Below, piece after piece: positions 8,820 through 39,449 of a DNA stretch of 64,000 nt. The notes beneath the pieces are model-generated. The model was not told the origin of the DNA and made no database searches. It saw nothing but the letters and a program-made list of their open reading frames with translations. Where the stretch lies: contig NC_037275.1 of NCBI RefSeq assembly GCF_000002425.4, positions 16,513 through 80,512 on the forward strand. The letters run 5' to 3'. The position numbers and the translations under genes were made by a program. The stretch's first letter is position 1; each line of letters opens with the position of its first letter. This DNA is from Physcomitrium patens. Lineage: Eukaryota > Streptophyta > Bryopsida > Funariales > Funariaceae.

Positions 8820-8858
8820 ATTGGTGACACCATACACCTAGGATTTGTTTTGGCGTAG

Positions 8859-9388: not shown

Positions 9389-9393
9389 CGTAG

Positions 9394-10964: not shown

Positions 10965-11194
10965 GATTGACAAGAGTACACTTACAATATCAGAGCTTTG
11001 TCTTTTCTTGATTAAGAGTGGATTACCCCTTTTTCTTGATAAGACATAAGCGCATTAGAAGTTGCGGATTACCCTCTTTTAAACTGATATTGTTCTTAGT
11101 ATTTTCTTTGTTATCAATTCCTCTCTTCTATTTGTTTTGAGCGTTGTTAGACATCTTCTCTTTTCTAAGTGCTACTATGGCAGAGCTTGTTTAA
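10965..11194 (+). other. Element 2 leader with primer-binding-like site
   Basis: It holds ATATCAGAGC (10987-10996), which resembles the usual plant initiator-Met primer site TGGTATCAGAGC but lacks its first bases and lies 22 bp after the LTR end instead of 0-5 bp. The leader continues through TTGATAAGACATAAGCGC to gag. A short in-frame ATG (11177) with five codons and a TAA precedes the gag ATG, as in element 1. Confidence 0.5.
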
Positions 11195-12184: not shown

Positions 12185-12189
12185 GGACC

Positions 12190-14100: not shown

Positions 14101-14106
14101 CAAGGT

Positions 14107-15678: not shown

Positions 15679-15773
15679 AAACCTCTCTTATAAAAGAGAC
15701 AAGATTGAGGCAAGATAACATTCAATTTCCTATCTTTGTTTGTAACTTCTTTGCATTTTGTGATGCTAATTAG

Positions 15774-16196
15774 ATGGAGAGCCAACAACCAGCGGATTCA
15801 ACTCAAGAACCTTCGTTTGCTGACTTACCGGATGAGACATTGCGATTGTCACAACCTTCAAGACGACGCAACCGAAATGAAGACCCTCAAGAACGACATG
15901 TTCTTCCTCGAATAGATGGTGAGATACAACGCGTTTGGTATCACGACCTTGGAAGAGATTCTCGATGTTTGGTGATATTATTGGAGATAGGAACGACTCC
16001 TGATGGTGTTTCAAATGTATTATTTGAAGGAAGTTATGAAGGCTTCAACAGTGATCAAATAACAGGGTGGTCTTCTCGCCCTGGAATGGGACACTATCGA
16101 TGGCTAAGAGGATCCATCAACTATCTTCGAAGAGAACAAAGATCAGAGTATGTAGCAAATACAATTCGCCGCATATTAGATTTTCTCAATCTATAA
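15774..16196 (+). CDS. ORF3 of element 2
   Basis: 140 aa, differing from the other copies by two conservative changes (Val-to-Ala near residue 7, Ile-to-Thr near residue 130). Same position between pol and polypurine tract (16224-16237). Function unknown. Confidence 0.6.
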   Translation: MESQQPADSTQEPSFADLPDETLRLSQPSRRRNRNEDPQERHVLPRIDGEIQRVWYHDLGRDSRCLVILLEIGTTPDGVSNVLFEGSYEGFNSDQITGWSSRPGMGHYRWLRGSINYLRREQRSEYVANTIRRILDFLNL

Positions 16197-16237
16197 TCAC
16201 CGCTCCTCGTGGAACTCGTCCCTAGAAGGGGGGGTAA

Positions 16238-16846
16238 TGTCACGGACATACATATAATTACCTATATGAATAGATAAAAGTATGTAAAAGTAGGTTAATT
16301 GTGTAATATCTTCTAGAGAAGCTTCTTAGAAGCTTCATAGACGCTGCTTTGACTTTATAGGAGTCTATAGTTGACTTTTAGGTTAGAAACTTGGTCAACA
16401 AGTTAGCCATGTGCCACGCATGTTGGAAGCTTAAAGAACAAGCTAACTACGTGGTCCATCCATAGAAAACTTGCCTTGCAAGCAAAGGCATGTGGCCTAG
16501 AAAGTCAACATATATTGGAGGTCTTATAGAACATCGCCACGTGGCTTCTAGTTAGATAGTATATATAGAGGCAAGAGTGAAGCCCTCTTCACTCTTGTCA
16601 ACTCCTTTCTTGCTTCTAGTCTAGTTTCAAGGGTCTCTAATTTTCTTGTATTTTGGCAATAGCCATTCCAGTTTCTTTCTTAATATACATATTTCTATTT
16701 TGTCCCATTTCTTTTTGAGAAAAGTCTCACTTACTCTTTAGCTTTCATCGAGTTCTTGTCCTTGAAAGATTGACAAGAGTACACTTACAATATCAGAGCT
16801 TTGTCTTTTCTTGATTAAGAGTGGATTACCCCTTTTTCTTGATAAG
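16238..16846 (+). repeat. LTR E followed by a truncated element leader
   Basis: LTR E occupies 16238-16767. Then comes GATTGACAAGAGTACAC with the same primer-like ATATCAGAGC and TTCTTGATAAG as after LTR D, up to 16846, where satellite TCCCTAAACCC begins. An LTR preceded by pol/ORF3 and followed by a leader is the signature of a tandem LTR-internal-LTR-internal array whose next copy has been removed. Confidence 0.85.
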
Positions 16847-17810
16847 TCCCTAAACCCTAAAACCTGAAAAATGAAACTCATATTTTTGAGAAACAAAAAC
16901 GTTTATAGATGTCTTTGAGACAATAGAAGGCTTGGCAAAATTTCAAACTGAAAAAAGTTGTGATACATTGAGAGATATGTAGGATCAAAAACCTCTAAGA
17001 CACTCTTGTAACCCTAAATCCTAAACCCTAATCCTAAACCCTCTAAATCCTAAACCCTAGAAATATATAAAAAATAGTATACATATAATATTTTGAAACA
17101 AAAAAGGACATATACGTACATATGCTATTTAATATATTAGTATTATATCTAGGTGCCTCTATGTATTTATTATATATTTAATTTCATTTCACTTTTTTGT
17201 TTCCTCATATATTAATCAAAGACAATTTCTTGCGATTTTGAAAACCTCATAACTCCTAAATCCTAAAAACTTGCTCGAGACCCTAAGACCCTAGAACCCT
17301 AGAACCCTAAATCCTACAACCCTAAGACCCTAAGACCCTAGAATCCTTAACCCTAAGACCCTAGAATCCTAGAACCCTAAGATCCCAAGACCTTAAGACC
17401 CTAAGACCCTAAGACCCTAAACCCTAAACCCTAAACTTTAGAATCCTAGAATCCTAAGACCCTAAGACCCTAAGATCCTAGAATCCTAAGATCCTAGAAC
17501 CCTAAGACCCTAGAACCCTAATACCCACAAACTTTAAGACCCACAAATTTTAAGACCCTAGAACTCTACAACCCTAAGACCTTAAAACCCTAATATTCTA
17601 AAACCCTAGAATCCTAATATCATAAGACCCTAAGACCCTAGAACCCTAAGATCCTAGTACTCCAAGACCCTAGAACCCTAAGATCTTAGAACCTTAAGAC
17701 CCTAAGACCTTCAAATCCTAAGACCCTAAGACCTACAACCCACAACTCATCTAGTCAGCATGGATAACAAATTTGGTGACACTATACACCCAGGATTTGT
17801 TTTGGTGTAG
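16847..17810 (+). repeat. Telomere-like satellite unit (left end missing)
   Basis: It starts at TCCCTAAACCCTAAAACC, equal to 7899 in the first unit, then core, AT-rich part and degenerate CCCTAAGA tract, ending TTGTTTTGGTGTAG at 17810. No gene. Confidence 0.85.
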
Positions 17811-18413
17811 CCAAATTTGGTATGCATTCCAACTCTTTACATAGTTCTCACATGATAACAAATATAAAACTCAGATTCCGAATTAAGGTCCCTAAACCCT
17901 AAAACCTGAAAAATGAAACTCATATTTTTGAGAAACAAAAATGTTTATAGATGTCTTTGAGACAATAGAAGGCTTGGCAAAATTTCAAACTGAAAAAAGT
18001 TGTGATACATTGAGAGATATGTAGGATCAAAAACCTCTAAGACACTCTTGTAACCCTAAATCCTAAACCCTAATCCTAAACCCTCTAAATCCTAAACCCT
18101 AGAAATATATAAAAAATAGTATACATATAATATTTTGAAACAAAAAAGGACATATACGTACATATGCTATTTAATATATTAGTATTATATCTAGGTGCCT
18201 CTATGTATTTATTATATATTTAATTTAATTTCATTTTTTTGTTTCCTCATATATTAATCAAAGACAATTTCTTGCGATTTTGAAAACCTCATAACTCCTA
18301 AATCCTAAAAACTTACTCGAGACCCTAAGACCCTAAAACCCTAGAATCCTAAATCCTACAACCCTAAGACCTTAAGACCCTAGAATCCTTAACCGTGAGA
18401 TCCTAAGACCCTA
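17811..18413 (+). repeat. Satellite unit continuing across an uninterrupted element insertion site
   Basis: CCAAATTTGGTATGC follows TGTAG (17806-17810) directly. This is the pre-insertion state of the site that holds LTRs in the other units. The unit then runs through CCCTAAACCCTAAAACC and the core, and breaks at 18413 (AGACCCTAGGCC) into unrelated sequence. Confidence 0.85.
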
Positions 18414-18666
18414 GGCCAGGTATCGAGGGGGCATAGTATTGATAAGCCGGAATATCTAAGTGACAGGGTATCTTAGGGGATAAGCTTGAAGGGGCAATGT
18501 ATGGATGGGGGTAGTGTATGGAGTGCTAAAGTATCATTAGGATAGTATAAAGTATCATCAGCATAGTATATTGTAGGGATGGAGTACCAGAGGCCAGACT
18601 ATCGAGGAGGTAGGACATTCTACAAGCAGGATATTGATGGTGCAGGATATTGTTGGAATAGAGTAT
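18414..18666 (+). other. No gene seen
   Basis: G-rich unique sequence with loosely repeated words (GGGCATAGTAT, TAGTATA, AGTATCATCAG, GGATATTG). No coding frame or RNA gene recognised. Confidence 0.5.
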
Positions 18667-19096
18667 TTACGATGCAGATTGTCGAGGGAGTAGGCTATTC
18701 AGGACGAAGGGATCGAGCGGGCTAAATATCGACGGGGTAGAGTAGTATAGTGGGTGGAGCATCAAGGGAGTAGGATATCGAAGAGGGAGGGACTGTATTT
18801 TGAATCCGGAGAGGGATAACGGGGGGTTCACTTTCATGACAACAAGATCAGAACTCACATGCACCCATTTCTTGAAGGATCCCAAGTTTGCTTAGGCTGA
18901 CTTTACGATTCGCTAGATGCACGACTTCTCCGACCAGACTACAAAGGTTGCAAAGGGCTACCATGAAGCATGTCGTATCGACGTCTACCTTGTCGGTTGG
19001 ACTCACGGTGGTGGTAGATGCGGACTTCGATCCAGGATGAGGCCAGACGGGAACATCAGTAGGATCCATCTTGGCGGCGTCGACCTTGAACTCCAA
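18667..19096 (-). pseudogene. Frame-broken copy of the ACT-like gene at 43.2 kb
   Basis: Read on the minus strand, 19096-18850 gives AAKMD, KVDVDTTCFMV, LVGEVVHLANRKVSL. This aligns with the protein at 43244 (TEMD, DVDVDAMCFMV, LFGEIARLAKRRIQV). After a frame break the next stretch (VHVSSDLVVMKVN) matches LHVIFDPVLVKVN of that protein. Only the N-terminal ~100 residues remain, with at least one frameshift. The hydrophobic LPGLFGEIARLA-type segment of the better copy recalls an ACT domain, but the family is not certain. Confidence 0.55.
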
Positions 19097-19148
19097 AGAT
19101 GAAGCATAACTTATTGCACATTACAAATCATCGATAGTTCTATAACAT

Positions 19149-19737
19149 GTGGTGCTTTCATGTGGTTGTAGTCAAGCTTATACCGTGAAGAGGTGCACCT
19201 GGTTGCGCACCCTGCAAATAGATGTAGCTGCTAATCTTATAGAGTTGTACGAGAGCACAAACATCGAGGTTATCTTAGTCGTCCTAATACAGAAGTTACT
19301 CCGAAAGGTTCCAAGTCATGCAAATGTAAACTAGCGTACTTTTTGTTGTAACTATGATCTTGTTTTTAGTGATTCATGAAGTCTAGTAAAACAGATGCAA
19401 TTTTGTAAAATCTTTGGCGATATGTAAAAGTCACCTATCCATCCCACTCTGCCAAATGACAGATCATTCGAACATCTTTGGATGAGAGTGTAAAGGAAGC
19501 ACGCGCCCTCCTACATGATTTGCTGATGATTCTCATGGTACAATACGACGACTACTGCAAGCTTGCCGAATTCAAACAGCCCAACATTCACAGCAGGTTG
19601 GATGTGGCGTTCTCAGGGTGCTCCCAACTATAAGCATTGCCCCGCCTGATTTTTGTGCTACTTCGGAACCGGTTGTTGAGAAGTCACGAAGAAGGAGTCC
19701 ATCCTGATCACATATTATACCTCCAATACTTGTTCAG
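19149..19737 (+). pseudogene. Two exons of a Sec23/Sec24-like transport protein, decayed
   Basis: The first stretch (19149-19325) reads SCGCSQAYTVKRCTW, DVAANLIELYES, EVILVVLIQKLLRK. The second (about 19455-19737) reads DESVKEARALLHDLL, DDYCKLAEFK, LPRLIFVLLRNRLL, EEGVHPDHILYLQYLF and ends at a good donor (TTCAG/GTACGTG). The helical region and the LPxxxFxLLRxxLL, EEGVHPD pattern fit the C-terminal part of plant Sec23/Sec24-family COPII proteins. One in-frame TAA (near 19631) breaks the second exon. Neighbouring exons were not found. Family assignment is from memory of motifs. Confidence 0.4.
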
Positions 19738-19944
19738 GTACGTGATGTTTTTGTGGATCCTATACTCTGCTAGGGCCGAAGTGGACATGAGAGTCACATC
19801 CGGTTTATGGTGGAAGGACGGTGTGTGTGCACGAAAAGCGTGAGATTCTAGTCCCACGTCAGTTTCGTGAAAATCCCACTTAGCCATTTGAGGTATGTGG
19901 CTATCAACTCTATGCATGAATCTCACATCTTTTAAAACTTAGAT

Positions 19945-20205
19945 CCTTAATTAAGGTCTGTAGATCCTAATTAAACCCTAAACCCTAAACCTAGACCCTA
20001 GTTCCGATTTTTAAATCCAAAAATCTAAAAAAAACACATATTTTTGGAAAATAAAAATATTTATAGAAGGCTTTAAGACAATGTAAGCCTTGGAAAAAAT
20101 TCAAAACGAAAAAAAAAAGTGATATATTGAGAGAAATTTAGGATCAAAAACCTCTAGGACACTCTTGTAACCTTAATCCCTAAAACCCCTAAACCCTAAA
20201 CCCTA
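19945..20205 (+). repeat. Old satellite remnant with telomere-like repeats
   Basis: ACCCTAAACCCTAAACC, then a diverged core (AATAAAAATATTTATAGAAG, AAGCCTTGGAAAAAATTC, ACCTCTAGGACACTCTTG), then CCCTAAACCCTAAACCCTAAG. It is clearly older than the units at 7-18 kb. Confidence 0.7.
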
Positions 20206-20210
20206 AGACC

Positions 20211-20624
20211 TTGAACAGGGCCTTCACAGTACCACCCAAGGAAACCGTCGATGGCCTAGAATTGTCTTGGCCTCCTTTCAAAATTACAAGTAGGATAGGC
20301 TCGATGCATGAAGCGCACAGGGAGAAGCAGCCTTTTGAGGAGGTTGACCATCATAACAAGGTGATTATTTGCAATTTTGAACAAACTGTACGTGAATGTA
20401 AACCCGGTGAGTCTCCTCTTACGATTGGGTCAGGCTCAACACAAAGATGAATCCAAAAGAAATGGTAAGATGAGGAGATTGAGCTTTAGAAGCGGCAAGT
20501 CCAAGAGCATGGAAAAGGACATTGGAAGAAGATTTTGAACAACAATGCAAATCCATTATGTAGACGCACTGAAGTTGATTTGAAAGACAAGTGGAGGAAC
20601 TTGGAGAAGTACAATAGGGTGTGA
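20211..20624 (+). pseudogene. Telobox-type single-Myb (telomere-binding-like) gene fragment
   Basis: One reading frame runs from 20211 to 20621, interrupted by three stops: TGA (20448), TAA and TAG within the next 60 nt. The end encodes a telobox Myb: QKKW, DEEIEL, EHGKGHWKKIL, RRTEVDLKDKWRNL, EKYNRV. VDLKDKWRNL is the hallmark of plant and animal telomere-repeat-binding Myb proteins, and the three spaced Trp are all present. The frame meets TGA right after GGGTGTGAG, which could be a former splice donor. It lies directly after a telomere-like satellite remnant. It is non-functional as read; an origin by capture into subtelomeric DNA is inference. Confidence 0.75.
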
Positions 20625-20639
20625 GTTCTTTGAAGTTAC

Positions 20640-21000
20640 CACACTACTTGTATAAGTGTAGATTTACTTAATTAACCAAAATTTCTAAAATTTGAGGACA
20701 AAGCAAAACTTTTATGGATAAAAAGTTCATCAGTGCCTGTCAGGTTTAAAGTCTAGGGATTTTGGGAGAAAAATAAATAAATAAATAACAATATACTAGA
20801 CAAGTAAAAAAGAAAAAAGAGAAAAGATATATATATATATATGTACATACATGCTGGAGAAGTGTAATTTATTATAGCTTTATTTTTTTAATAAATTATG
20901 AAAGGGAAAAAGAAATGGACACCATGGCAAAGAATCGGGATAGGGACTTGCAGTGGAACTGAGACAGGGGCCAAGACGTAGGAACAAGGATTTGATAGTG
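20640..21000 (+). other. No gene seen
   Basis: AT-rich spacer with AAATAAATAAATAA near 20770 and a short TA run near 20830. Nothing coding. Confidence 0.5.
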
Positions 21001-21004
21001 GTGG

Positions 21005-23130
21005 AGGAAGGTGGCACCTATTGATCGCTCCACCGGCTATTCATTGTGGGACCTTTCTCTCCGTCTTTCTTTGTCTTTCTCCCTCTCTATGTATATGTGT
21101 GCATGCGTCTCTCTCTCTCTCTCTCTCTCTCTCCCTTCTTTTCATTCAACACTCTCTTTCTTACCTTTTCATCTTCTATTTGTATTCCACGGTTTTGTGC
21201 TTCTCTGTCCGATTGTATCCTCACACACTCGCACACACACATTATCTTCTATTTGGCATTGCTCCCCTTGCCTTCTTTTTCTTTGATCCTCTCTTTTCCT
21301 TCGATCCTTCCACCTCTGCTGGATCATTCCCTCCTCTTTTGCCTTGCCCCCCTGGGTCAAGGGTTTATCTTTGCGGTGGTCATGTCCTCCTCGCCTCGTT
21401 TGACCTGCGGATCGGTTGCTTTGTCCCTCGCCGCTCCTCGCTTCCGACCCCTTCCACCTCTCCCTTGCCCATTTTTCCACCATGGATGTCGTTTTTGCCA
21501 AATCAGAGTCCCTCCTTCCCTGATCGTTCTTGGTATCCAAAGTGAGGTTTTTATTTTATTTTATTTTATTTTTTTCCATTGTGAACCTTCGACTCCACTA
21601 GGTGATGTGAATGTGCAGGTGTCATAGCGCATTATATGATTGTGGATTGTTATTAAATGCCCAAGTATTCTTTAATCCGGTGAGGGTTTCTTTTACAATT
21701 ATTTTGGTTATTTTAAAAATTAAAAATTAAAAAATTTGTATGCATATATTTATGGTAAATATTTAAATAAATTATTAGTTATAAAAGTATTTACTGAAAC
21801 AGGAACCCAGGAGAGAGTGTATTGAATGCAAAGACGAATCTCAATGACCAGGGTTGAAGCAGGGAGGTCAATCCGGGTATCTGTGAAGGCGGGTATGATG
21901 GGAGAAGGGGAGGCTTGAAGCTAGGAGGTTAATTTGGATAAATTTGAAGGCGGGTATGATGGGAGAGTAGAGGCGAGGATGACAGGGTATGAAGTATAGG
22001 GAGATGCTTCTCCTTATCGGTTGTTGTCGTCATCGTCGTCGCTGCATGTGTGTGTGTATGAGAACTCGTGATGATCACCTTATCGACGACTGCATGCAGG
22101 GCTATTCTTTGTGAGATCTCTCTCTGTCTTTCTGTCTCTCCCTGTATCTCTCTGTGTGTGTATGTGCGTGCAATTCTTTGTCTCTCTCTCCCTCCCCGCT
22201 TCTCATTCGACGCCCTCTCTTGTACCTTCTCACCTTCTCTTCATATTCCGCCGTTTTGTGCTTCTTCGTCCTGCTGTATCCTCGCTTTCCTTCTTGTACT
22301 TGCATGCTCTTCATTTCCTTGTGCGGTGCGGCCACCCACCTTCACTCCTCTTTGCAACTCTGACGAATCATATCTAATCCTCTTGTTTCCCATTGACAAA
22401 GATCCACTTTTGCACCTTGCGGTACTGCTGTCTAAACCCTTCTTCCTACACCCTGGTTGGAAATGTGTGCATTAGTGTTTTGGGATTGTAGCTAATTGGA
22501 CCGAGAAGCAGCGGGAAGTAATTGGCATTTGAGTCATAATTGGCGTTTGAGTTGTGGTGGTGGTGGAGGTAAGAGGCATGAGTGTGTGGCATGGAGAGGC
22601 AAACCCCGATGATCAGGGTAGGGGGTCAATCAGGGTATTTTGGAAGGTGGGTATGATGGGGGAGGGGAGATGGGGATGGCAGGGTATGAAGTGTGGGAGG
22701 GGGAGATACTCGTCCTTCCCAGTCATTGTCGTCATCGCCATCGCTGCGTGTGTGTGTGTGTGAGAGAGAACTTTTGATGATCGCCCCACTAACGATTGCA
22801 TGCAGGGCTATTCTTTGTGAGATCTCTCTTCTTCCAACTGTATCCTCACGTACACACATTGTCTTCTGTTTGGCACTGCTTGCCCTCCTTACCCTCCTTT
22901 TCTTTGAACCTCCTACCTCTGTTGGATTATTCCTTCCTCCTTCGTCCTGCCCCTCTGAGTTGAGGATTTATCTCTACGGTGGTCTTGTTCTCGTTCTTCC
23001 TGTTGATCGCCCCCTGGTCGTCCCTCTCCGCTCCCTGCTTCCGACCCCTTCCACCTCTCTCTCTCTCGCCTATTTTTCCACCGTGGATGCCGATTTTGCC
23101 AGATCGGATTCTTCCCTCCCCTGATCGTTC
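21005..23130 (+). repeat. Three dispersed copies of a CT-rich repeat module
   Basis: The module starts GATCGCTCCACCGGC or GATCGCCCCACTAACG, then CATGCAGGGCTATTC, a CTCTCTCT/GTCTTTCT tract (a pure CT run near 21104-21133) and a TGTGTGTG run. It continues into TTTGCCTTGCCCC and CCTCCGCTCC-type sequence and ends near GATCGTTCT. Copies lie at about 21010-21550, 22060-22470 and 22780-23130; a fourth starts near 45430. Long ORFs here follow from low-complexity CT sequence and are not believed. Confidence 0.6.
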
Positions 23131-23254
23131 TCCTTCTCCTGATTGACTCAATTTACTCTAGTCTCATCTTCTCTATATTGCTCGGCCTCTGGTCGTGCCA
23201 CCTCCGTGTTCATTACTGCACCCTCTCTATTTGGGTCAAAGCTTTGTTCTAGCT

Positions 23255-24010
23255 GTTGGCCGAGTGCGTGTAATGTTGTGTTGAGTGTTTGGGAATGAGT
23301 AGAAGTAAGGAAATAGTGTGTAGATTATTGTTGAAGGAGGGGACTGGGATTGTGTAACTTTGTTCTATTATGATTTACATGATACGCAATTTATAGGAGA
23401 AAGCGAGTTCATCTACTACTTTTCATGAAAGCGTGAAAGCCCTTGTAATCTGAGGTTTACGAGGCGCGAGTAATGTGGAATTGAATGGTTAGGGGCAAGG
23501 AAAAGCGAGAAAGCATCTATGATCCGAGGTTCATAGTTTGCTAGTATTGTTGTGTACTTGTTGGGAAAATTCATATGAACCTGAGAATCTTCGTAATTTG
23601 AAGTTGGCTGAGTGCATGTAATGTTGTGTTGAGTGTTTGGGAATGAGTAGAAGTAAGGAAATAGTGTGCGGATTGATGTTGAACGAGGGGACTGGGGTTG
23701 TGTAACTTTGTTCTATTATGATTTACATGATACGCGATTTATAGGGGAAAGCGAGTTCATCTACTACTTTTCATGGAAGCGTGAAAGCCCTCGTAATCTG
23801 AGGTTTATGAGGCGCGACTGATATGGGAATGAATAGTTACGGGCAAGGAAAAGCAAGAAAGCATCTATGATCCGAGGTTCAGAGTTTGCCAGTACTGTTG
23901 TGTACTTATTGGGGAAATTCATGAAAACTTGAAAATCTTCACAATTTTAAATTAGCGGGGTGGGTGTAACACTGTGAAGAGCATTCAGGGATGGATAAAA
24001 ATAAAAAAAT
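23255..24010 (+). repeat. Tandem repeat with 348-bp period
   Basis: GTTGGCCGAGTGCGTGTAATG at 23255 recurs at 23603 and, more diverged (GCGGGGTGGGTGTAAC), near 23951. Units one and two match along their length (GAGTGTTTGGGAATGAG, TTTACATGATACGC, ATCATCTATGATCCGAGG-like words). The array ends ~230 bp before the dioxygenase start and may lie in its promoter. No coding content. Confidence 0.75.
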
Positions 24011-24235
24011 AAAAAAAATGTCCGTGGTCCAGAATTCATGATTTGTGAAAATTTGTGGAATATAAAATGTTTTAATGCATAATTGGTTGCACCGTATAAA
24101 ATATTGATTCGATGGGCTCCGCTATAACTATGTACTCACTTATTCATTTTTCATAGATCTGTTTTATTTTATTCGAATTTATTTAATTTTACATGCATTT
24201 ATTTCATTTTCCACAGGTTCATTTCATTGTGGACG

Positions 24236-26035
24236 ATGGGAAAAAGGCGAAAATATGAGAACAATTTTGGCAGGAAAATGGAAAAAAAACAAAAAAGTCC
24301 CAACGATGGTTATGGAAACAATACGAGCATGGTATGGTGTGAATTTTGTGAATGTGAGGTCCCGAACAAGAAACCTTGTTTGGATCAACATTTTCAACCT
24401 GGTTCAAAACATGAGAGGAAAGAAAAATTGGCTTTATTCAAGAGTTTATTTGAAAAAGAAGGATTGGATTACTTTCCAGGCGGTACTACATATTATTGCC
24501 AAAAATGTAAGATGCAGCTGCCTAATGTTGTAGGTGAGTTGTTATACCATATTAAAAAATTTGCTTATAATCATGGCGATGACAAGAAATTGAAAACAAT
24601 AGAATTTTCATTAAACGAAGGTGAAATATTTATCCAACGGAGTATGCGATTGGTTGATTGTGAAACTACAAATAAAGGTTTAACAGAACAATTGCTTCAA
24701 CTCCCGCGTGTTGAAAGTCCAACAATATTAACTAGAAGTGGTTTTTTTAAAGATAAATTAATTGACTTGAGGAATGGAATTTTCACTCCTAAAGAACTTC
24801 GAGTAATCACAAAAATAGTATCATATCTTGAGAAGGGTGGGAGAAACTTATGCCGATCGCCAGCAAAAGAAAGTTCAAGTATTTCTATGTTTGGGATGCG
24901 TTCTGCTTATGGAGACACTGGTTGGTGAGTTTTGTATACGTATATATATATATAAATTTGATATAATAATTAAAATTTTTAAATTCTTAAATGTAGTAAT
25001 ATTATGTTTCAATGTTATTTGATTTGATTTTATGGTTGGGTGTTATATAGGTATATTCAAAACAGGCCAGAATATTATCATTTATCTGAAGAACTTGCGA
25101 AATATACTTGTCATATTTTAAGGAGGTCGTATGAAAGTTTATTTCAACACTTGGATAATATTGTGATTGCTGAAGGCTTTTCAAATAGTGGTGCTTGTAT
25201 TGGTAATGGACCATTTACATCATTTGCTATCACGAGGGACTTCAATTGTAGGCCTCATCGTGATGAAGATGATTATGATTTTGGATTCATAATATGGCTA
25301 CGCGAAGGTAATATAATACAACTTAGTTTTTTATTGGAATTTCCAGTATTTGTATGTAAATGTAATGCAATGTTTTTTGGTTTTTTTTTAAACAAAATAA
25401 TTGGAGTGTTGATGTTTTAGATAACATGTTTTTTAACTTTAAACTTTTATACTAACAATGGATTATTTATTGAATTAGATCCATCGGAACAAAATGAACC
25501 GGCCATATTTGCTTTCCCAGAAGCATCGATTATGTTTGTACCCAAACATGGGGATGTTTGTGTTTTCAGGCCAAGTGAACTTTTACATTGTACACGGCGC
25601 CTTCAAGGAAAGGGCTTACTGGGTCTTGCATTTTTTCAAAAATGCTCACTTTACAGACAACTCGGGCGATTAATTCACCCCGACGGGCCCGGTATAATAG
25701 ACTACAAAGATAAGAATGGGAATGTTCGTGTTGTTGAAACCCGAGAAGGATTCCTTGAAAAGAAACGTTTTTACGAACGACACTTGTTGGAAAATCAGTT
25801 CTCCATCAAAGAATTCATGGTAAATTTACAATGTTATATTACTTTGTTACTTGTTTATAGCTTTTGGTTTTGGTGTTTGATATTTATTTATTTTTATTGT
25901 TTTTATAACTTTTAATGCTTGTTCAACTAAGTAATAAGTACAACTAGCTTTGCATTGTGGATAACAAGCAAATGTTTGTTTGATAAGGGCAAAAAAGAAG
26001 ACAAACAAGTATCTCCTGCCACTGATCGGGAGTAG
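24236..26035 (+). CDS. TET/JBP-like 2-oxoglutarate Fe(II) dioxygenase with two zinc fingers
   Basis: Spliced from four exons: 24236-24924, 25051-25307, 25479-25819, 25988-26035. All introns are GT-AG, phases agree, and the total is 444 aa with no stop. A likely 5'-UTR intron ends at CCACAG (~24216). Zinc finger 1: C35-x2-C38, H52, H59. Zinc finger 2: C88-x2-C91, H105, H113. Double-stranded beta-helix: metal ligands H299-x-D301 (PHRDEDD) and H352 (SELLHC), a preceding FAFPEASIMFVP and GDVCVFRP, with R355/R356 as possible 2-oxoglutarate ligands, then GLAFFQK. This arrangement fits the TET/JBP-type nucleic-acid dioxygenases known from fungi, algae and some early land plants. Oxidation of 5-methylcytosine or another base is inferred from family. 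The alternative is a 2OG oxygenase with an unknown substrate. The last small exon is the least certain part. Confidence 0.75.
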
Positions 26036-26350
26036 TCTTGTAGCAGTGGAGATGGATATATTGATGGATATATCAACATTTGTGGTGGATTTTGATGATA
26101 TTATTTTTGGAATTACTTTTAATATTGTGCTTAAGTAACTGTAAGTATTCACAGGTTGGAATGTGGTTTTATTCCACTGTTTATATTTTTTACATTATAA
26201 TATAGCCTCATGTATTATTGTTATTATTTTTTACATTATAATACTTGGTTTGAAGGAATAATGGTACGTTATTTGACATGTTCAAAGTACATTTATTTCA
26301 TTGAATGTAGTCATACACATTAATTTCCTTCCCTAACGTGTAATTTATAT
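26036..26350 (+). other. Spacer after the dioxygenase
   Basis: AT-rich sequence, probably 3' UTR and intergenic. TTTTTACATTATAATA occurs twice (near 26187 and 26230). No further gene seen. Confidence 0.5.
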
Positions 26351-26613
26351 TGATGGTGAACTATGCCTGAGCAAAGCGAAGCCAGAGGAAACTTTGGTGG
26401 AGGCTCGTAGCAATACTGACGTGCAAATCATTCGTCAGACTTCGGTGTAGGGGCGACCAATTAATCGAACCATCTAGTAGTAGCTGGTTCCCTCCGAAGT
26501 TTCTCTCGGGATAGCTGGAGCTCGTGTGAGAATTTTATCAAGTAAAGCGAATGATTGGAGGCATCGGGGGTGTAATGCCCTCGACCTATTCTCAAACTTT
26601 ACATAGATAAGCC
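26351..26613 (+). pseudogene. Fragment of 25S (large-subunit) rRNA gene
   Basis: TGATGGTGAACTATGCCTGA, GAAGCCAGAGGAAAC, GGTGGAGGCTCGTAGC, TACTGACGTGCAAATC, AATCGAACCATCTAGTAG, AGCTGGTTCCCTCCGAAG, GGATAGCTGGAGCTCGTG and CCCTCGACCTATTCTC are landmark words of domain II of eukaryotic 25S rRNA, in sense orientation and correct order. It has many substitutions (for example AACTTTGG for AACTCTGG) and small insertions, and no other rRNA is attached, so it is a dead fragment. Confidence 0.9.
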
Positions 26614-26616
26614 GTC

Positions 26617-27200
26617 AGGGCAAGGAACTGGGACTGGGACTCGCAGTGGAACCGAGACTCGCACCAAGACTGAGACTCGCGCCCTCACAATGGGAGTGTG
26701 GATTGGATGCGACACCAGTTAGCGGACCTCGGAGTGGGTCCCAGTTTTGACACAAGTCCCAGTTCTACGAGCTACTCTTGGCATGAATTCCACTCCCAGC
26801 GCGAGTCTCAGTCCTACGAGTCCCAGTCTCGGTAAGAGTCCCGGTCTTGCGAGTCCCAGTCTCGGTGCGAGTTTCGGTCCTGCGAGTCTCAATCCCGGCG
26901 CGAGTCTTCCTAGTCCTGTAACTCTCAGTCCCGGCGTGAGTCCCAGTTCGGCACAAGTTTCTAAATTCTGAATTGAAATTTCTTGAATTCCTTCGAACTT
27001 CTTGAATTCTTTGTCTCCATAGACCAAGTTTTTATTTACTCTTTTTTTTTTTTTTTTTTTTTTTTGTTTTTTGATGTTAGACAAATTCTATTTTTAAATA
27101 ATTATAACACTGACGTGAAAAAGTATTGGAGTGAAATGCACTTAGTTGCATGTGTAGTGAAGATCCCCGAATGCGAAAGTATTGTGATCCCCGGATACCA
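26617..27200 (+). repeat. Repeat module with GAGTCCCAG minisatellite, copy 1
   Basis: GCAAGGAACTGGGACTGGG, then ~10 degenerate 15-18 bp units (GAGTCCCAGTCTCGG, GAGTTTCGGTCCTGC, GAGTCTCAATCCCGG), then TTGAATTCCTTCGAAC, a 25-base T run (27041-27065) and a shared tail to GAAAGTATTGTG. The frame across the units reads as S-P-S-L-G-like repeats, a consequence of unit length. Copy 2 is at 28638-29196. Confidence 0.75.
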
Positions 27201-27239
27201 AACATTACACATCCGATGTTGACTACGTTTTCCTTCCTA

Positions 27240-27510
27240 ATCATCCATCATACCCTCTAAACTATCCACTCATCTCTAAACTATCCACTCATCAATTTAC
27301 TGGCTTTTCTTAACCCTACATACAATGTATTGTAAGACACAAAAATAAATAAATAAATAAATAAAATCCTACCCATTCTACCTGACCCCGCTCCCAACTG
27401 TGCAGCGTCCTCGCCAACAATGAACTGGTAAAACCTTTTCTAGTGATTTTCCGAACAAATTTTCTACCACTCTGGGCTCGCCGGATTGGTCAACTCCAAC
27501 ATTCACTGGA
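27240..27510 (+). other. No gene seen
   Basis: Unique sequence with AAATAAATAAATAAATAAA near 27345 and a short duplicated TAAACTATCCACTCATC near 27260. No coding signal on either strand. Confidence 0.4.
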
Positions 27511-27511
27511 G

Positions 27512-28070
27512 GTGGTTCCCCACAGGTTCTGGCTCTAATGATGAGTCCTCGTCCTCCTCCGATACTTCCATCGGCTCTCTCCGCGATTAGACTGATAAGT
27601 CTTCATCGTACCCTAAACCCAATTCACGAACTTGGGCCTCCAATTGCAAAATCCTGACAACCTGGTTGCTCCCAATTGGTGCTGCTGTTGCCTCACCTTC
27701 TCCTCCAATTCACCGATTGTTGAAACTGGTGGGGCAGACATCCGTGACCGACCAATACTGGCTGGGTCACTCTCCAATTTTGTGACTACAGCAGCTTTCC
27801 AGGTTCCTATTTCTGCCCGTAACTCTTCCGTTTCAATCCAATATACTGGTCAACCAATATCCCCCCTTTTTCCTATTCCAGTATGGCTGCCTTTTCTCGT
27901 TCCACCTCCAACAGGCGCTTCGCCTCTTCCCGTCCCAGAAGCCATGCCCTGCGATTTTGGAGCAGTTCTTGCCTTTGGCTTTCCAATACAGTTCGAGTGT
28001 TTTCTTTTTTGTGTTGTCCCAGGTGTAGTGGGAATCTGCTTGGTAGCATCATTTTCACGGAGCTCAAGTC
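27512..28070 (-). pseudogene. Coiled-coil protein fragment, frame-broken
   Basis: The minus strand reads as a heptad-like, charged protein: HKKENTRTVLESQRQELLQN, REEAKRLLEVEREKAAILE (28067-27875), then EELRAEIGTWKAAVV, IGELEEKVRQQQHQLG, and after a +1 shift VVRILQLEAQVRELGLG and EVSEEDEDSS. At least two frame changes interrupt it. The family was not recognised. Such coiled coils occur in many plant proteins and in transposon ORFs. The opposite-strand ORF is proline/serine low complexity and less likely. Confidence 0.35.
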
Positions 28071-28394
28071 TTGTCTTTTTTGTGTTGTCCCAGGTTTAGT
28101 GGGAATCTGCTTGGTAGCATCATTTTCACGGAACTTGGGACTCGTTCGACCAAGTTTACAGATTTTCCTGTCCCACTTTGATAAGCACTGATGGAACCAT
28201 AGCCGCGGCTAAACCTGGTTACTCCTTAGTTACCACTATCAAATGTGGCCAGAAGAGAAACTCCATCTTTGCACTGCAACCAACAACTTCATCGACAGTT
28301 TCTATTCCCATGGAGGACGCATTGAACAAAGGGCACATAGGAGTTCCATGGTGGCAATAATGCCCTTTCAGCATCAGATTCATTCTTTCCTACA

Positions 28395-28419
28395 CCCTAA
28401 ACCCTAAACCCTAAACCCT
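28395..28419 (+). repeat. Short perfect interstitial telomere repeat
   Basis: About 3.5 perfect CCCTAAA units, followed by CCTCCTCCCCCCC. Same sense as all other telomere-like tracts in the window. Confidence 0.8.
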
Positions 28420-28637
28420 CCTCCTCCCCCCCCCTTCTTCCTCCACGTCCAGGCGACGACAAACAAGCAACTAACACTCAGTGCATGTGCTCAGACCGAC
28501 CCTCTCACTCCCCTCCACACAACGACAGACAAGCAACAAACATTCAGTGCCCGGTGCCCAATCTCACCCTGTACACCGGAAGGAAAGGGAAGAAAATTCG
28601 AATGATGCATGGTGGGAGAGGGAGGGAGTGAGACACC

Positions 28638-29196
28638 GGGGCAAGGAACTGAGACAGGGACTCGCAGTGGAACCGAGACTCGCACCCTCACAATGGGAGT
28701 GTGGATTGGATGCGACACCAGTTAGCGGACCTCGGAGTGGGTCCCAGTTTCGACACAAGTCCCAGTTCCACGAGTCCCAGGCTTGGCATGAATTCCACTC
28801 CCAGCGCGAGTCTCAGTCCTACGAGTCCCAGTCTCGGTAAGAGTCCCAGTCCCGGTAAGAGTCCCAGTCCTGCGAGTCCCAGTCTCGGCGCGAGTTTCGG
28901 TCCTGCGAGCCTCTATCCCGGCGCGAGTCTCCCTAGTCCCGTGACTCTCAGTCCCGGCGTGAGTCCCAGTTCGGCACAAGTTTCTAAATTCTGAATTGAA
29001 ATTTCTTGAATTCCTTCGAACTTCTTGAATTCTTTGTCTCCATAGACCAAATTTGTATTTACTCTTTGGTTTTTTTGTTTTTTGATGCTAGACAAATTCT
29101 ATTTTAAATAATTATAACACTGACGTGAAAAAGTATTGGAGTGAAATGCACTTAGTTGCATGTGTAGTGAAGATCCCCGAATGCGAAAGTATTGTG
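28638..29196 (+). repeat. Repeat module with GAGTCCCAG minisatellite, copy 2
   Basis: Near-duplicate of 26617-27200: GGCAAGGAACTGAGAC, the 15-18 bp GAGTCCCAG units (one or two more than copy 1, for example an added AAGAGTCCCAGTCCCGG), the TTGAATTCC tail and GAAAGTATTGTG end. The T run is much shorter here (GGTTTTTTTGTTTTTTG). Confidence 0.75.
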
Positions 29197-29345
29197 TTCA
29201 GACTCACAACCGTAACCAAGTAACGTATTGAGGGCGAGGCGAAGTTGTGATGTGAGGCGAGGCGAGGCGAGGTGAGCCAGACTCCAAGCTCGTAAACCTG
29301 GTCGCATTGGAGGTGAACCTGTGCTGGATCAAAATTCGGCTGCTC

Positions 29346-29580
29346 TGTGTTGATCTGTTTTTCTTTCGAAGTGAAGTTGAGGCATTCTTGGGGCGATTTG
29401 AATCGATTTTTTATTTTATTTTATTGTTTTTTGTTTTGTTTTGGTTTGTTTTGTTTGTTTTCTAAAGTGAGTAACTGTGCTCCTTCGTTGTGTTTGAGGT
29501 TGAAGTAGGAGCTTGAAGGAGAGGGACGTTACATCGCTTCGCATGTTCCTTGTTAGGTCAACTCTTGTCTACTCCACCAC
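29346..29580 (+). repeat. Direct repeat left of the kinase pseudogene
   Basis: TGTGTTGATCTGTTTTTC, GAAGTGAAGTTGAGGC, GGGACGTTACATCGCTTCGC and TTGTCTACTCCACCAC recur in the same order at 32547-32818. Only the AT/GT-rich middle differs. The pair brackets the kinase pseudogene in direct orientation. Confidence 0.8.
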
Positions 29581-30261
29581 CTGCATAACATGTAAAACGT
29601 TGTCCAAAACTCTACATGCTTCCATGTTTGTGTGGTGCATGGTTCCCAATTTAATTGTTTCATGGATTGTTGAAACCTGGTGTAGGATTGAATTTGTTTT
29701 GGGATGGAATTAGAAGATTTGACAACTTTTTGGCTCAATGAACATGGGGTTTGTTTTAAGCCTCCTCATGGTTCTTGTTTTTCATTCACTGCTGCAGTCC
29801 CTAAACCTGGTACATTGCATAAAGGAATCGGCCAACGTAATGACAGGGACGGAGCGGTGGGACGGAGCGTGCTGGTCCACAGGCCGTTGAGGTATTCAAT
29901 TTCTTACAATTTGTTTTGCTCTAAACCTTGGTCGCAGCGGCATGTTTGGGAGATGCTCTGCACATTACATCGAGGTCTTGTAGGTATTAATGTAATAAGT
30001 TTTTGTACTCACGTTGAACTCGTTTGTGCAGGTTGCGGGGTTGAAGTTCGAGCAAGTTCGAGCATCGGAGTGGTAAGGGCTGCAATCATGGTCCTCCTTG
30101 CGAGTGGCAGGTTTACAAGTGCGTCTCGAGCTCGTACCATTGTGATTTCACTCTTGGGATGTGATTACTAGTGTCGCAATTACCTTTCTGCATTTCTTAT
30201 TTTCATCATTCAAATGTGATTAGGGCTTGTCTCCTAAACCTCCATGGTTGGCGCGGGTTCT
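29581..30261 (+). other. Spacer before the kinase pseudogene
   Basis: No clear exon. It contains AAAGGAATCGGCCAACGTAA and GACAGGGACGG (29820-29850), also present downstream of both 29-bp minisatellite arrays (34690, 39565), so parts are mosaic repeat. Confidence 0.35.
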
Positions 30262-32300
30262 TTCTCCAGCACTCTTGGTGGCAGCCATGGTGTTGGTCGT
30301 GTATATTGCAAAGGTCGACAAGGCGACTACTACGTCATGGTGAGTCACCTATTGAATTGTTGTAGTCTAAGCAGACCTTTAGTTTTCATGTAGTTGTCTT
30401 CTTTTCAAACTTGACTCATGATTTATTTATTTATTTATGTATTTATTTATTTATTTTAATCCGATTTTGACTTCGTTCACATGCTGTAGGTCATGGATAT
30501 GCTCGGACCAAGTCTCCGGGATGTCTAGAACTCTTCGGGGTCAAGCGCAAGTATTTAGGGCAGCTCGTTCTGATTGAGCAGGTATGCACATGGAGACGTG
30601 AAGCCCGAGAACTTTCTCCTAGGACAACCCAATACACCTGAAGAGAAGAAGCTTTTTCATGTACATCTCGGGCTTGGTGAGTTTTCAGTATCGTTGTGCT
30701 GCAATTCGTTCTCTGTTCACACATTAGCAACCTCCTTTGCTCCAATTTGGCGTTACATTTTTTTTTTTTTTTTTTTTTTGTTTTTTTTTTAACATCTGTT
30801 AACTGTTACATGAAGAGCATCTGGACTGAGAATTGGATGAGTTTATTACCGCTACGTCCATGCACAAGTCAATTTCACACCAAGATTAACGTCTTTCTCC
30901 CATATATGCAGCTACTCGATGGAGGGATGTTACAATCGGTCAGCATGTAGAATATGACCAAAGGCCTGATGTGTTCCGGTGAGGCTCTTCCCCCTCCCCC
31001 CCTTGTCCTGATCTGTAGTTGCCATTCCTGTTTTGGCGGTTGGGAGCGACTGTTTTGCTTTTGAGCTATATTTTGATTCTGTGTAATTTTCGTACATGCA
31101 GTGGAACTGTTCGCTATGCGAGTGTGCATGCACATATGGGAAGGACTGGGAGTAGGAAGGACGACTTGGGATCACTGGCTTATACTTTGGTATTCCTTAT
31201 GCAGGGTAGTCTTCCTTGGCAAGGTTATCAGGTATTGATCAACTTTGTAGCTAGTAGCTAATGAAGAAGTGATCAGCTAGTAGCTAATGAAGAAGTGATC
31301 AATGCGATATATATATATATATATATATATATTTATTTATTTATTTTTCCTTCCTTCCTTCCTTCTTTCCTTCTCACTATTTTTCATTTGGACGTGCTCT
31401 ATATATTTGGTTTTGTAGGGCGACAACAAAGGTTTTCTGGTGTGGAAGAAGAAAATAGCAACTTCTCCCGAAATGCTGTGCTGTTTCTGCCCGGTTCCGT
31501 TTTTAAACAGACGTTTTGGAGATGGTCGCAAATATGAAGTTCGATGAAGAGCCAAACCACGGCAAGCTCGTTCTACTCTTCGATTCCATCTTGGGTCCTA
31601 ATCCTACTGTGAGACCCATAAACACAGACAGTGTTGAAAAGGTGCATTTTATGACCTTCTTTTGCTTCGTTTTTCCTGTCCCTACACTGAGGATTCTTTT
31701 TTTGAACCTACTCTTCATTTGATCATCATATTAATAAAGCCTTTTGTTTCTAGTGTTCCATACATGTTGGTCAGAAGAGAGGGCGAATCAGATGTTGAAG
31801 AAGATGAGGATGACCAACCTAAGAAAAAGATCCAGTTAGGAATGCCCGCAACTCAATGGATTACAACGTTTACAACGCTCGGTGGCCAAATGAAGCAGAG
31901 GTAAGGCGGTGCGAGCTTTCGTCATTGATGTGGTGTGATGTCGCTCAGTTAGGCATGAGCCCGGTCATGTGTGTATCGTCGATTTTGACTTTGTCCTCCT
32001 GGATGTCGATCAGCTATTCCGATTTCTACGACATGCGTTTACTTTCAGCAAGCAGCCTGGATTCGGACAAACCCATTTATTGAACTTTCATTCCTACATT
32101 TGTTTCGACGTGTAGGTATCACTATGATGCAGCTGATTCTTGGCTTACGGAGCACGTGGAAAAGGGTAATGAAGACGGTCTGTATATAAGCAGTGTGGCT
32201 TCTTGTACAAATCTATGGGCTCTTGTTATGGATACAAGGACAGGATTTACTGCTCAAGTTCATGAGCTGTCGCATGTATTCGCCATCCTCGAATGCATGT
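30262..32300 (+). pseudogene. MUT9-like / casein-kinase-I-like protein kinase, intron-containing pseudogene
   Basis: Exons recognisable by GT-AG borders: to 30339 ([17 protein letters not shown]); 30490-30676 ([22 protein letters not shown]); 30912-30978 ([13 protein letters not shown]); 31102-31231 ([24 protein letters not shown]); 31419-31641 ([37 protein letters not shown]); 31754-31900 (QPKKKIQLGMPATQWI); 32116-~32290 (EHVEKGNEDGLYIS, NLWALVMDTRTGF). These are plant MLK/PPK-type nuclear kinases. Breaks: TAG after SLRDV (30526), DLGLA changed to HLGLG so the metal-binding Asp is lost, a frameshift near 31500, and missing N-lobe glycine loop and C-terminus. Retained introns show it arose by DNA duplication, not retroposition. 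Confidence 0.88.
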
Positions 32301-32546
32301 GGGTTTATTTAGAAATATATTTTGTGCAAGATTTTGCCTGCAGTCTCTTGGAAGGTAGTACAGGTTTTTTTTTCTTTTTTTCTTTTTTTTGTGTTGTTGT
32401 TATTGTTGTTGTTGTTGGGATTTTTGTGTTGATGGAGAATGTGGACTTTTTGTTCATTTCTAGGTTTTCAAGTTTTGTATGACACATTTGTTTTATATAT
32501 TTTGTTGCTTTGTTCGGGCTGTTGGTCCATTTTGTGTATTTGGCCC
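32300..32546 (+). other. No gene seen
   Basis: T-rich sequence with GTTGTTGTTATTG runs, after the last recognisable kinase exon. Confidence 0.4.
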
Positions 32547-32818
32547 TGTGTTGATCTGTTTTTTCTTTCGAAGTGAAGTTGAGGCATTCTTGGGGCGATT
32601 TGCATTGTTTTTGTTTTTTGTTTTTTATTTTTTTTTTGTTTCTGTTTTATTTATTTATTTATTTATTTATTTATTTTTGTGTGTGTGTGTGTGTTTTCTA
32701 CGGTGAGTGATTGTATTCCTTTGTTGTGTTTTAGGTTGAAATAGGAGCTTGAGACAGAGGGACGTTACATCGCTTCGCATGTTCCTTATTAGGTCAATTC
32801 TTGTCTACTCCACCACTT
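32547..32818 (+). repeat. Direct repeat right of the kinase pseudogene
   Basis: Second copy of 29346-29580, expanded by TTTATTTATTTATT and a GT run (32648-32694). Confidence 0.8.
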
Positions 32819-33039
32819 GGATTTGATTTCCATAACTCGACTCTGTAGAAAACCATATCCCGGTGAAAAAGTTTCTAGTCTAATATCATGGAGATGGAAA
32901 ATAATCTTAAAACAGAAAGCATCCACCTGCATGCATGACATGCAACGAAGGAAGATGCTGCATGCTTCTCACACCAAACACAACAAAGGATGACACAATT
33001 TGTAACCTTCGAAATGTGAGTCAGGAAAGCTGAGGGTCG

Positions 33040-33985
33040 GGGTCCTGTCGATGAGGTGCTTGTAGATAGCGCGTTGGGTGGGATGTATCAGAGGAGCCAC
33101 AACTTGAGGGGCAGGAAGAGCGCCTAGTTGCACGCATTCAATAATTTCTTTTTGAGCCCGTCGAGCTTGCCGGTGTCGAGGGGTGAGTTCTCAGGGTTTT
33201 CGATGCTGGATAAAGAATCGTTGATTGAGGCGGGGAGCGGGAAGCGTGAAGTGGAGCGGGTGAAGCGGCCCTACGAGGGTTGAGCTTGAGGTCGGCGTCA
33301 TCGCTGGAAGCCGGGGAATTGTCACTGGGGTCACCGACACTTTTTTATGCACTATTCAATAAGTTTCTGCCGTCGAACAACAAGGACGAGGAGGCATAGC
33401 CGGTGGTGGACATATATGGATCGATCAGTTGTGGATGTTTGAATTCAAGGTAAAGCGATGGACGAGGGGGAGGATCCATGATTGAACGGAGTGCCCGTTT
33501 GTCCACCCAGGCGACAAAGCTAAGCATTGCAATCCGCGGCAGTACCACTACTCGGGGACGGCATACTTGGACTTTTCGAAGGAAAGCTCTCAGAGAGGCG
33601 ATGCATGCAAGTTCACGCACAGAGTGTTTGAGTGTTGGCTGCATCCGGCTCGATACTAGATGCAACCTTGCAAAGATGGGTAAAATTATCGTCGTTTGGG
33701 TGTGTGTTTTTTGCACACACGCTGAAGTAGCTCCGGTTGCTGCCTGCAACGGCACAAGCAGTGACGACGGGAGGTCGAAGCGGAGGAGGTTACGATGGGT
33801 CGCCGCGAGCTAGAGCAGCGGCGTGCTATGATGGGACGTTTGGATATGAGAGCTTGTCTTACGACGTAGCATCGGCAGGTCACGATCCGAGCCACTTGTC
33901 GAGGTACTCGAGCTCGGCCGACTCGGGTGGAGGGTATGTGACATCGTAGAATTCATCGCCCAGGTCGATGGTAGTCAAGTACAAG
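33040..33985 (+). repeat. P module, diverged copy 1
   Basis: ATGTATCAGAGGAGCCACA, GCACGCATTCAATAATTTC, GAGTTCTCAGGGTTTTCGATG, GGCGGGGAGCGG, GAACAACAAGGACGAGGAGG and GGCGACAAAGCTAAGC occur in the order seen at 36.7-37.7, 41.6-42.5 and 45.9-46.8 kb. The plus strand has open stretches (YQRSH, LHAFNNFF, SRGEFSGFS, SLIEAGSG; later YESLSYD), while stops and shifts break every frame. It is probably an old gene fragment read on the plus strand, of unknown family. It is the most diverged of four copies. Confidence 0.5.
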
Positions 33986-34248
33986 CAATACGCTGTGTTG
34001 TTGAGCCCTCCGTTGTCTCCCTCGAAGTCGCCTCCGCCATCGCCTAGGTCGGTTCAGGAATGGGGGCAAATGCGGGGTCATTTGCAAGCAAGTCGATGTC
34101 ATAAGGGTAACGTGGGATGTTGCAAGCGACGCTACAGCAAGCGGCACAAGCTTAGGGACTAGGGGACACAAGCAGATGTCGGCGGTGTCGGCACATCGGC
34201 GACATTTGGAACATTTGAACTTGATGCCAACGCTGATAATACTCAAAA

Positions 34249-34567
34249 CAGGTTCAATTGGAATCGGCTGCCGAGAGCAGGTCCAGTTGGAATTGGCTGC
34301 CAAGAGCAGGTTTAATTGGAATCGGGTGCCAAGAGCAGGTCCAGTTGGAATTGGCTGCCAAGATCAGGTTCAATTGGTATCGGCTACCAAGAGCAGGTCC
34401 AGTTGGAATTGCTGGCTAAGAGCAGGTTCAATTGGATTCCACTGCCAAAAGCAGGTCCAGTTGGAATTGGCTTCCATGAGCAGGTTCAATTGGAATCGGC
34501 TGCCAAGAACAGGTCCAGTTGGAATTGGCTGCAAAGAGCAGGTTCAATTGGAATCGGTTGCCAACAG
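34249..34567 (+). repeat. 29-bp minisatellite, 11 units
   Basis: Units of exactly 29 bp (CAGGTTCAATTGGAATCGG + CTGCCAAGAG and the variant CAGGTCCAGTTGGAATTGG), the two variants often alternating. First CAGG at 34249, last at 34539: ten steps of 29 with no indel. Because 29 is not a multiple of three, all three frames read the same units out of phase and stay open. Confidence 0.95.
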
Positions 34568-34569
34568 CT

Positions 34570-38395: not shown

Positions 38396-38659
38396 GTAAT
38401 ACGCTGTGTTGTTGAGCCCCCCGTTGTATCCCTCGAAGTCGCCTCCGCCATCGCCTGGGTCGGTTCAGAAATGGGGATAAATGCGAGATCATTTGCAAGT
38501 AAGTCGATGTCATGAGGGTAACGTGGGATGTTGCAAGCGACGCTACAGCAAGCGGCGCAAGCTCAGAGGCTAGGGGACACAAGCAGATGTCGGCGGTGTC
38601 GACACATCGGCGACATTTGGAACATTTGAACTTGATGCCAACGCTGATAATACTCAAAG

Positions 38660-39442: not shown

Positions 39443-39449
39443 CTCAATG

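Follow-up and report, generated by a model that had tools for sequence, protein, structure and literature searches.

The 64,000-nucleotide stretch of Physcomitrium patens DNA analyzed in this study (contig NC_037275.1, positions 16,513 to 80,512; hereafter termed the window) was found to contain an intact four-exon gene, the predicted product of which is related to CMD1 (5mC-modifying enzyme 1, CHLRE_12g553400v5) of Chlamydomonas reinhardtii, an enzyme transferring a glyceryl group from ascorbate onto 5-methylcytosine (5mC). CMD1 is, judged by sequence comparison, the closest characterized relative of the encoded protein. The structural novelty of the latter is the arrangement of two zinc fingers followed by a CMD1-like domain, since the alignment with CMD1 revealed no matching fingers in that enzyme. 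We tentatively put forward the possibility that the gene encodes an Fe(II)-dependent member of the TET/JBP superfamily that is guided by its zinc fingers and may act on 5mC in DNA by a CMD1-like mechanism, with ascorbate as the co-substrate and a hypermodified cytosine as the product.

The gene in the window is real, and its structure as first described was confirmed. The four exons join in phase to an open reading frame of 444 amino acids with a single terminal stop codon, and GT-AG borders are present at all three introns (Table 1). H299-x-D301 and H352, as well as the FAFPE, GDVCVFRP, and GLAFFQK stretches named in the initial annotation as the framework of the enzyme, are all present in the translation, and the two C2H2-type fingers claimed for the N-terminus are readable in it, their finger residues being kept in relatives. 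A further coding exon may precede exon 1. Its equivalent is used in the public P. patens protein A0A2K1ID74 (P0001), and the gene copy on contig C26 (see below) features ATA where the window copy starts with ATG at position 24236.

Table 1. Features of the gene and of its vicinity; positions refer to the window.
Feature	Position	Strand	Remarks
Duplicated block including the gene	18510..34163	.	Also on contigs C2, C26, C5, and C19; right limit is that of the fetched stretches
Possible upstream coding exon	22004..22110	+	In frame, spliced to 24217; protein of 486 aa
Exon 1	24236..24924	+	Both zinc fingers and N-terminal part of the catalytic region
Zinc finger 1, C35-x2-C38-x13-H52-x6-H59	24338..24412	+	Read from translation
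Zinc finger 2, C88-x2-C91-x13-H105-x7-H113	24497..24574	+	Read from translation
Exon 2	25051..25307	+	HxD motif and CMD1-like Trp
H299-R-D301, predicted Fe(II) ligands	25256..25264	+	Align with CMD1 H345/D347
D304	25271..25273	+	Aligns with CMD1 D350
W312, equivalent of CMD1 Trp358	25295..25297	+	W in 4/4 relatives covering the site
Exon 3	25479..25819	+	Remaining (second) half of the predicted double-stranded beta-helix, C-terminal region
H352, third predicted Fe(II) ligand	25586..25588	+	Aligns with CMD1 H397
L362, TET site of the 2OG-anchoring Arg	25616..25618	+	Six residues before F368; K360 two earlier
Exon 4 including stop codon	25988..26035	+	
Large-subunit rRNA fragments just downstream of the gene	26352..26666	+	Rfam RF02543, 130.4 and 73.4 bits
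Alternative last exon of model XP_024366530.1 (LOC112277918, P0002)	26607..26750	+	

The window protein and the two public P. patens entries A0A2K1ID74 (97% identity) and LOC112277918 (96% over half of the query) belong to one family. Outside P. patens, three protein searches revealed the relatives P0003–P0009, P0011, and P0015, with approximately 42–62% identity, all of them deduced from environmental or raw-read contigs. An environmental protein of 474 amino acids showed 50% identity to the query, with 78% of the latter aligned (E = 2.4e-110), and the similarity is therefore far beyond chance. The list of 16 proteins with E values of up to 10 contained no other named land plant, which is not proof of absence from land plants, since the search needs shared five-residue words and most of the rows are unnamed. 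In all four relatives covering the respective region (P0003–P0006), the similarity extends no further than the W-L/F-R/Q-E stretch or slightly past it. Intron 2 of the window gene starts at this point, which suggests that this intron position may be common to the window gene and these relatives. A viral origin was considered and rejected within the collection of viral contigs used, two pattern scans of which gave no relative.

In the HMM search of the spliced protein, Tet_JBP (PF12851) was the best-matching Pfam family (E = 0.0032), yet the score of 17.1 bits is below the gathering score of 34.9, as are those of P0003 (24.4 bits, E = 1.9e-5) and of CMD1 itself (13.3 bits only). A scan of the whole genome with the same Pfam model was uninformative, giving no match anywhere, controls included. 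Searches of the PDB with a profile of five family sequences placed CMD1 (7cy4) first (E = 0.0016); with an alignment of nine sequences, its E value rose to 0.12, and a haemoglobin match attributable to chance (0.055) ranked ahead of it. The window protein alone found CMD1 at E = 0.72, and P0003 alone did not find it. Human TET2, NgTET1, and CcTet were absent from the PDB matches listed up to E = 10 for the single protein and for the five- and nine-sequence profiles. When the nine-sequence family profile, from which CMD1 was left out, was compared with full-length CMD1, the local alignment scored 50.4 (probability 86%), as opposed to a mean of 15.6 (s.d. 2.6, maximum 26.2) for 200 shuffled CMD1 sequences and 13.3 for reversed CMD1; the global mode of hhalign gave no sensible alignment, and in BLASTP, 31% of the query aligned with CMD1 at 24% identity. 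The earlier description of a TET/JBP relative with two fingers in an early land plant is supported. AlphaFold2 models of P0001 (nine sequences) and P0002 (12 sequences) featured mean pLDDT values of 39.5 and 42.0, respectively, too low for the models to be usable.

At the 20 listed sites, the three MAFFT modes used paired the residues of the window protein and CMD1 identically. The iron ligands H345, D347, and H397 of CMD1 correspond to H299, D301, and H352, and its residues D350, I356, W358, F371, T399, F416, and T337 to D304, I310, W312, F326, T354, F368, and T291, respectively, the last of these varying between T, S, and A among the relatives; CMD1 R418 is represented by K370. Unlike CMD1, the window protein has no Arg410, and H249, S335, and S414 are unmatched (S214, A289, and A366). 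CMD1 R244 was aligned to P209, with R207, invariant in the window protein and all four relatives covering it, lying two residues off. For CMD1, H249 is reported to be essential and R244 to stack on the base and to contact ascorbate, Thr399, Thr337, His249, Ser335, and Ser414 being the other ascorbate contacts; W358A, T399A, and D350N each abolished activity (PMC7854593).

Among the relatives covering the respective sites, H299, D301, and D304 are kept in 4/4 and H352, F368, T354, and K370 in 5/5, and position 312 is Trp in all five sequences concerned (window, P0003–P0006). D304 and F368 represent the base-reading Asp/Asn and the stacking aromatic of TET/JBP enzymes, the former being the residue by which CMD1, TET2, and NgTET1 read the N4 position of cytosine (PMC7854593). 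The iron triad and the stacking aromatic are likewise shared with TET2, NgTET1, and CcTet, and so is the base-reading Asp, albeit replaced by Asn in TET2 and by Gly in CcTet, which accepts 6mA.

The residues at the predicted co-substrate site differ from those of the TET enzymes. In CcTet (385/391), TET2 (1896/1902), NgTET1 (289/295), and CMD1 (410/416), an Arg precedes the stacking aromatic by six residues, according to the published numbering (PMC7854593 and PMC11040006). In the family studied here, this site is occupied by Leu or Ile in 6/6 sequences (window, P0003, P0007, P0008, P0009, and P0011). The exact register at L362 is uncertain, since CMD1 keeps the Arg at the lost site and the preceding loop is three residues shorter in the window protein (deletion at CMD1 I409–W411). 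A second difference concerns the residue 13 positions after the first His, being Trp in the window protein, in contrast to Val in hTet2 and Leu339 in CcTet (PMC11040006), the two enzymes for which this residue was compared. In CMD1, the equivalent Trp358 occupies the place of a 2OG-binding arginine of TET2 and NgTET1 (PMC7854593).

The main rival explanation is a conventional 2OG-dependent TET-type oxidase, forming 5hmC, 5fC, or 5caC, in which another basic residue (359/360, R355, R356, or K370) would anchor 2OG. Tet_JBP being the best Pfam family is in line with this explanation. The shorter loop and a basic residue two to three positions before the lost Arg in five of the six sequences (K360 in the window protein, K359 in P0007 and P0008, R359/R360 in P0009, and R359 in P0011, with P0003 lacking one) may provide a stand-in for the lost Arg, and R355 and R356 are invariant in 5/5 relatives. 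Moreover, hTet2 also features Thr two residues after the second His, so that only W312 and the missing Arg discriminate between the two co-substrates. Against the conventional form stands that the 2OG-binding Arg replaced here is described as strictly conserved in PMC7854593, and that its exchange in CcTet (R385A) gave a dead enzyme (PMC11040006). The base oxidase claimed in the initial annotation is thus doubtful in its conventional 2OG form, because of the Leu/Ile in 6/6 sequences and the matched CMD1 Trp358 (5/5 including the window protein), and we consider this explanation somewhat unlikely.

Returning to the CMD1-like enzyme, W312, T354, and the missing Arg suggest ascorbate as the co-substrate, and ascorbate use by the window protein is put forward as a serious prediction. 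The fingers would direct the enzyme to selected DNA sites, Fe(II) would be held by H299, D301, and H352, and a flipped 5mC would be read by D304 and stacked on F368. Ascorbate would occupy the co-substrate site beside W312 and T354, and a carbon fragment would be joined to the methyl group of 5mC, as in CMD1, yielding, for example, 5-glyceryl-methylcytosine (5gmC). We infer 5gmC to be the product and the gene to be expressed.

To place the gene in its genomic context, the genome of 470,438,890 bases in 101 contigs was searched, the window corresponding to positions 16513–80512 of contig C23. The window protein gave 44 matches and P0003 gave 35, the latter adding contig C12 and one further site on C3; manual grouping of the matches resulted in at least about 15 places. 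The gene had been regarded as single-copy, which holds within the ~64-kb window, where no second copy was found, but not genome-wide. In six-frame translation, each older place found contains either stop codons, for some of which introns may account, or just a short piece. The young copies on four other contigs are in different states. The C5 copy carries four premature stops and D301H. In the C19 copy, stops are accompanied by a length change of one base and by H299Y, D301N, and C88Y. The C26 copy, which is the annotated one, has its exon 1 split by a copia-like insert of 3329 bases (approximately 10115875–10119200), the insertion being recent, since the 286-base ends of the element are 100% identical. 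The C2 copy has no stop and keeps 19/19 checked residues, but differs by 15 amino acid changes, including R222C, R300C, R314H, D341H, R355W, and R356H, the last two at sites invariant in 5/5 distant relatives; this copy may or may not work. The window copy shows no stop, frameshift, or lost key residue and is the sole copy found to be open and unchanged at family-invariant residues.

Because the end of the C26 insert can be translated into the SSFLN residues of A0A2K1ID74, this public entry appears to describe the interrupted C26 copy, with the element treated as an intron. Users of A0A2K1ID74 should therefore be aware that, despite its 97% identity, it matches a retrotransposon-split copy and not the intact one.

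Decay by C>T and G>A changes, noted as methylation-type in the initial annotation for the repeats of this region, is supported for the gene copies. Relative to the window copy, C2 shows C>T or G>A at 20/24 of the nucleotide differences, and the same changes predominate in C5 (47/56) and C19 (44/57). The CpG observed/expected ratio was 0.835 for the coding exons and between 0.43 and 0.83 across the 4-kb bins of the window. The dN/dS values of 0.41–0.59 for the young copies (window versus C2, 0.41) are too weak to use, as is the value of 1.52 for the window versus C26, which is based on seven changes.

Three of the protein matches were examined for the same signature. All four differences of P0014 are explicable as C>T or G>A, compared with 343 of 2966 possible changes, which fits an altered copy or allele; for P0015, this applies to 14 of 34 differences. 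P0016 corresponds to window positions 24707–24952 if T is substituted for each C and TGA is translated as Trp, which accounts for 82 of its 83 residues. Its interpretation as a decayed copy (18 of 22 amino acid differences being explicable as C>T or G>A) was rejected, as the every-C-as-T pattern is that of a bisulfite-type contig. Since all C are read as T, this part of exon 1 was hence unmethylated on that strand in the P0016 sample, as far as the amino acids tell; the reading covers 30 C, five of them in CpG, within 24712–24954, and P0016 may equally well derive from the C2 copy. As a general observation, raw-read protein collections can hold translated bisulfite-converted DNA mimicking C>T-decayed paralogues.

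The state of the copies bears on the next rival explanation, according to which the gene is a relic, namely an unexpressed member of a decaying chromosome-end gene family that is intact by chance. The other four young copies (two with stops, one split by an element, and one open but altered), the older places with stops or short pieces, and the dN/dS of just 0.41 between the window and C2 copies are consistent with decay. However, the window copy lacks stops, frameshifts, and lost key residues, and the C>T and G>A changes separating it from C2 are located in C2. Furthermore, P0016 fits an exon 1 that was unmethylated in that sample, albeit without distinguishing between the window and C2 copies, and in distant organisms, the family is maintained at approximately 50% identity, its active site being intact. 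We regard a relic as quite unlikely.

The substrate was considered in connection with the zinc fingers. No significant Pfam finger match was obtained for the 444-aa protein. The cysteines of finger 2 are kept in 3/3 and its histidines in 4/4 of the relatives covering those sites, and finger 1 is conserved in P0004, the sole distant relative covering it in full; P0003 diverges in the finger 1 region and features Gly at H59. The H-x6/7-H spacing is long, a property which we take to resemble RNA-binding U1/matrin-type fingers. It would be compatible with a finger-guided enzyme acting on another substrate, such as thymine, N6-methyladenine, or 5mC in RNA. Members of TET/JBP act on thymine (JBP) and 6mA (CcTet), as outlined in PMC12730594. 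Nevertheless, D304 matches the Asp/Asn with which CMD1, TET2, and NgTET1 read cytosine N4, a position held by Gly in the 6mA-using CcTet, and another substrate is considered very unlikely. The fingers, D304, F368, and K370 together suggest DNA as the putative substrate of the CMD1-like enzyme proposed here.

The young copies share a block extending from approximately 18.5–19.1 kb to 32–34 kb of the window (13–15 kb) with 92–98.6% identity over long pieces, the C19 block being interrupted upstream of the gene. All five of them are located within 162 kb of a contig end (C23 40.7, C2 9.3, C26 11.0, C5 48.5, and C19 161.2 kb from the nearer end), and six older places are 152.6–1519.2 kb away from theirs (C12, C20, the middle of C13, and the extra C3 place being left out). 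Of the two contig ends read, a TTTAGGG array was present at that of C26 and absent from that of C2. On C23, the first 9 kb consist of N, as do almost all positions of the 4.5 kb preceding the window. With regard to the nearer contig end, the gene is directed outwards from it in C23, C2, C26, and C5 but towards it in C19. Given their position near contig ends in a shared block, the young copies were probably spread by exchange between chromosome ends.

Multi-copy genes are also a feature of the fungal transposon-borne TET/JBP types PU, AG, and PE, and CMD1 is named among the closest solved relatives of the PU and PE types in PMC12730594. The window protein is set apart from the PE type by HxD instead of the HxE described for that type. 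Unlike the fungal genes, the young copies are spread as a block near contig ends, and the transposon link noted previously for TET/JBP relatives was not observed, as no transposon unit was seen around them. Although copies are many and dispersed and fungal TET+ DNA transposons provide a precedent (PMC12730594), a cargo gene spread by transposition is highly improbable, given that the young copies form one block without a unit of fixed ends and all lie near contig ends, that inverted repeats within 20500–29000 are of low complexity, short, or in a tandem array, and that a Pfam scan covering nine of the 17 long open frames detected no transposase.

Taken together, the CMD1-like reading may be widened to a land-plant, zinc-finger-targeted, ascorbate-dependent hypermodifier, producing 5gmC or a kindred base, encoded by a working gene in a duplicating chromosome-end region, in which case the ascorbate level could influence which methylated loci are modified in moss; in this full form, we consider it unlikely. 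If true, CMD1-type chemistry, that is, the attachment of a vitamin C fragment to methylated DNA, would also occur in a land plant. Such a candidate has implications for the idea that 5mC removal in plants relies on glycosylases. The open-licence literature searched listed no account of a TET/CMD1 gene in a moss; earlier TET/JBP surveys may already list one. Gene targeting is routine in P. patens, and together with light-controlled ascorbate synthesis, it makes the 5gmC question testable with the candidate described here. The light control of ascorbate synthesis in P. patens is described in PMC11066809, and according to PMC12458080, 5gmC has not been reported from other species.

Several further features were recorded in the window. 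The large-subunit rRNA fragments downstream of the gene correspond to positions 822–950 and 967–1124 of RF02543, and it is within them that the public model has the start of its alternative last exon. Positions 1–18414 contain near-identical chromodomain Ty3/Gypsy elements (98.3% over 7.3 kb) and long AGACCCTA-type arrays, and the 8–12 kb bin features the lowest CpG observed/expected ratio of the window (0.43). Open frames of 530 aa (55785–57377, + strand) and 294 aa (43235–44119, + strand) had no Pfam match at E = 0.01. Pieces of TIR, NB-ARC, and LRR domains, located in separate open frames at 50384–54575 on the − strand, represent a disease-resistance-type gene; together with the Ty3/Gypsy elements, they are in keeping with a moss genome. 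Tandem repeats of 29 bases were identified at 34249–34568 (11 copies) and 38658–39443 (27 copies), where they coincide in part with open frames 220 and 283 aa in length.
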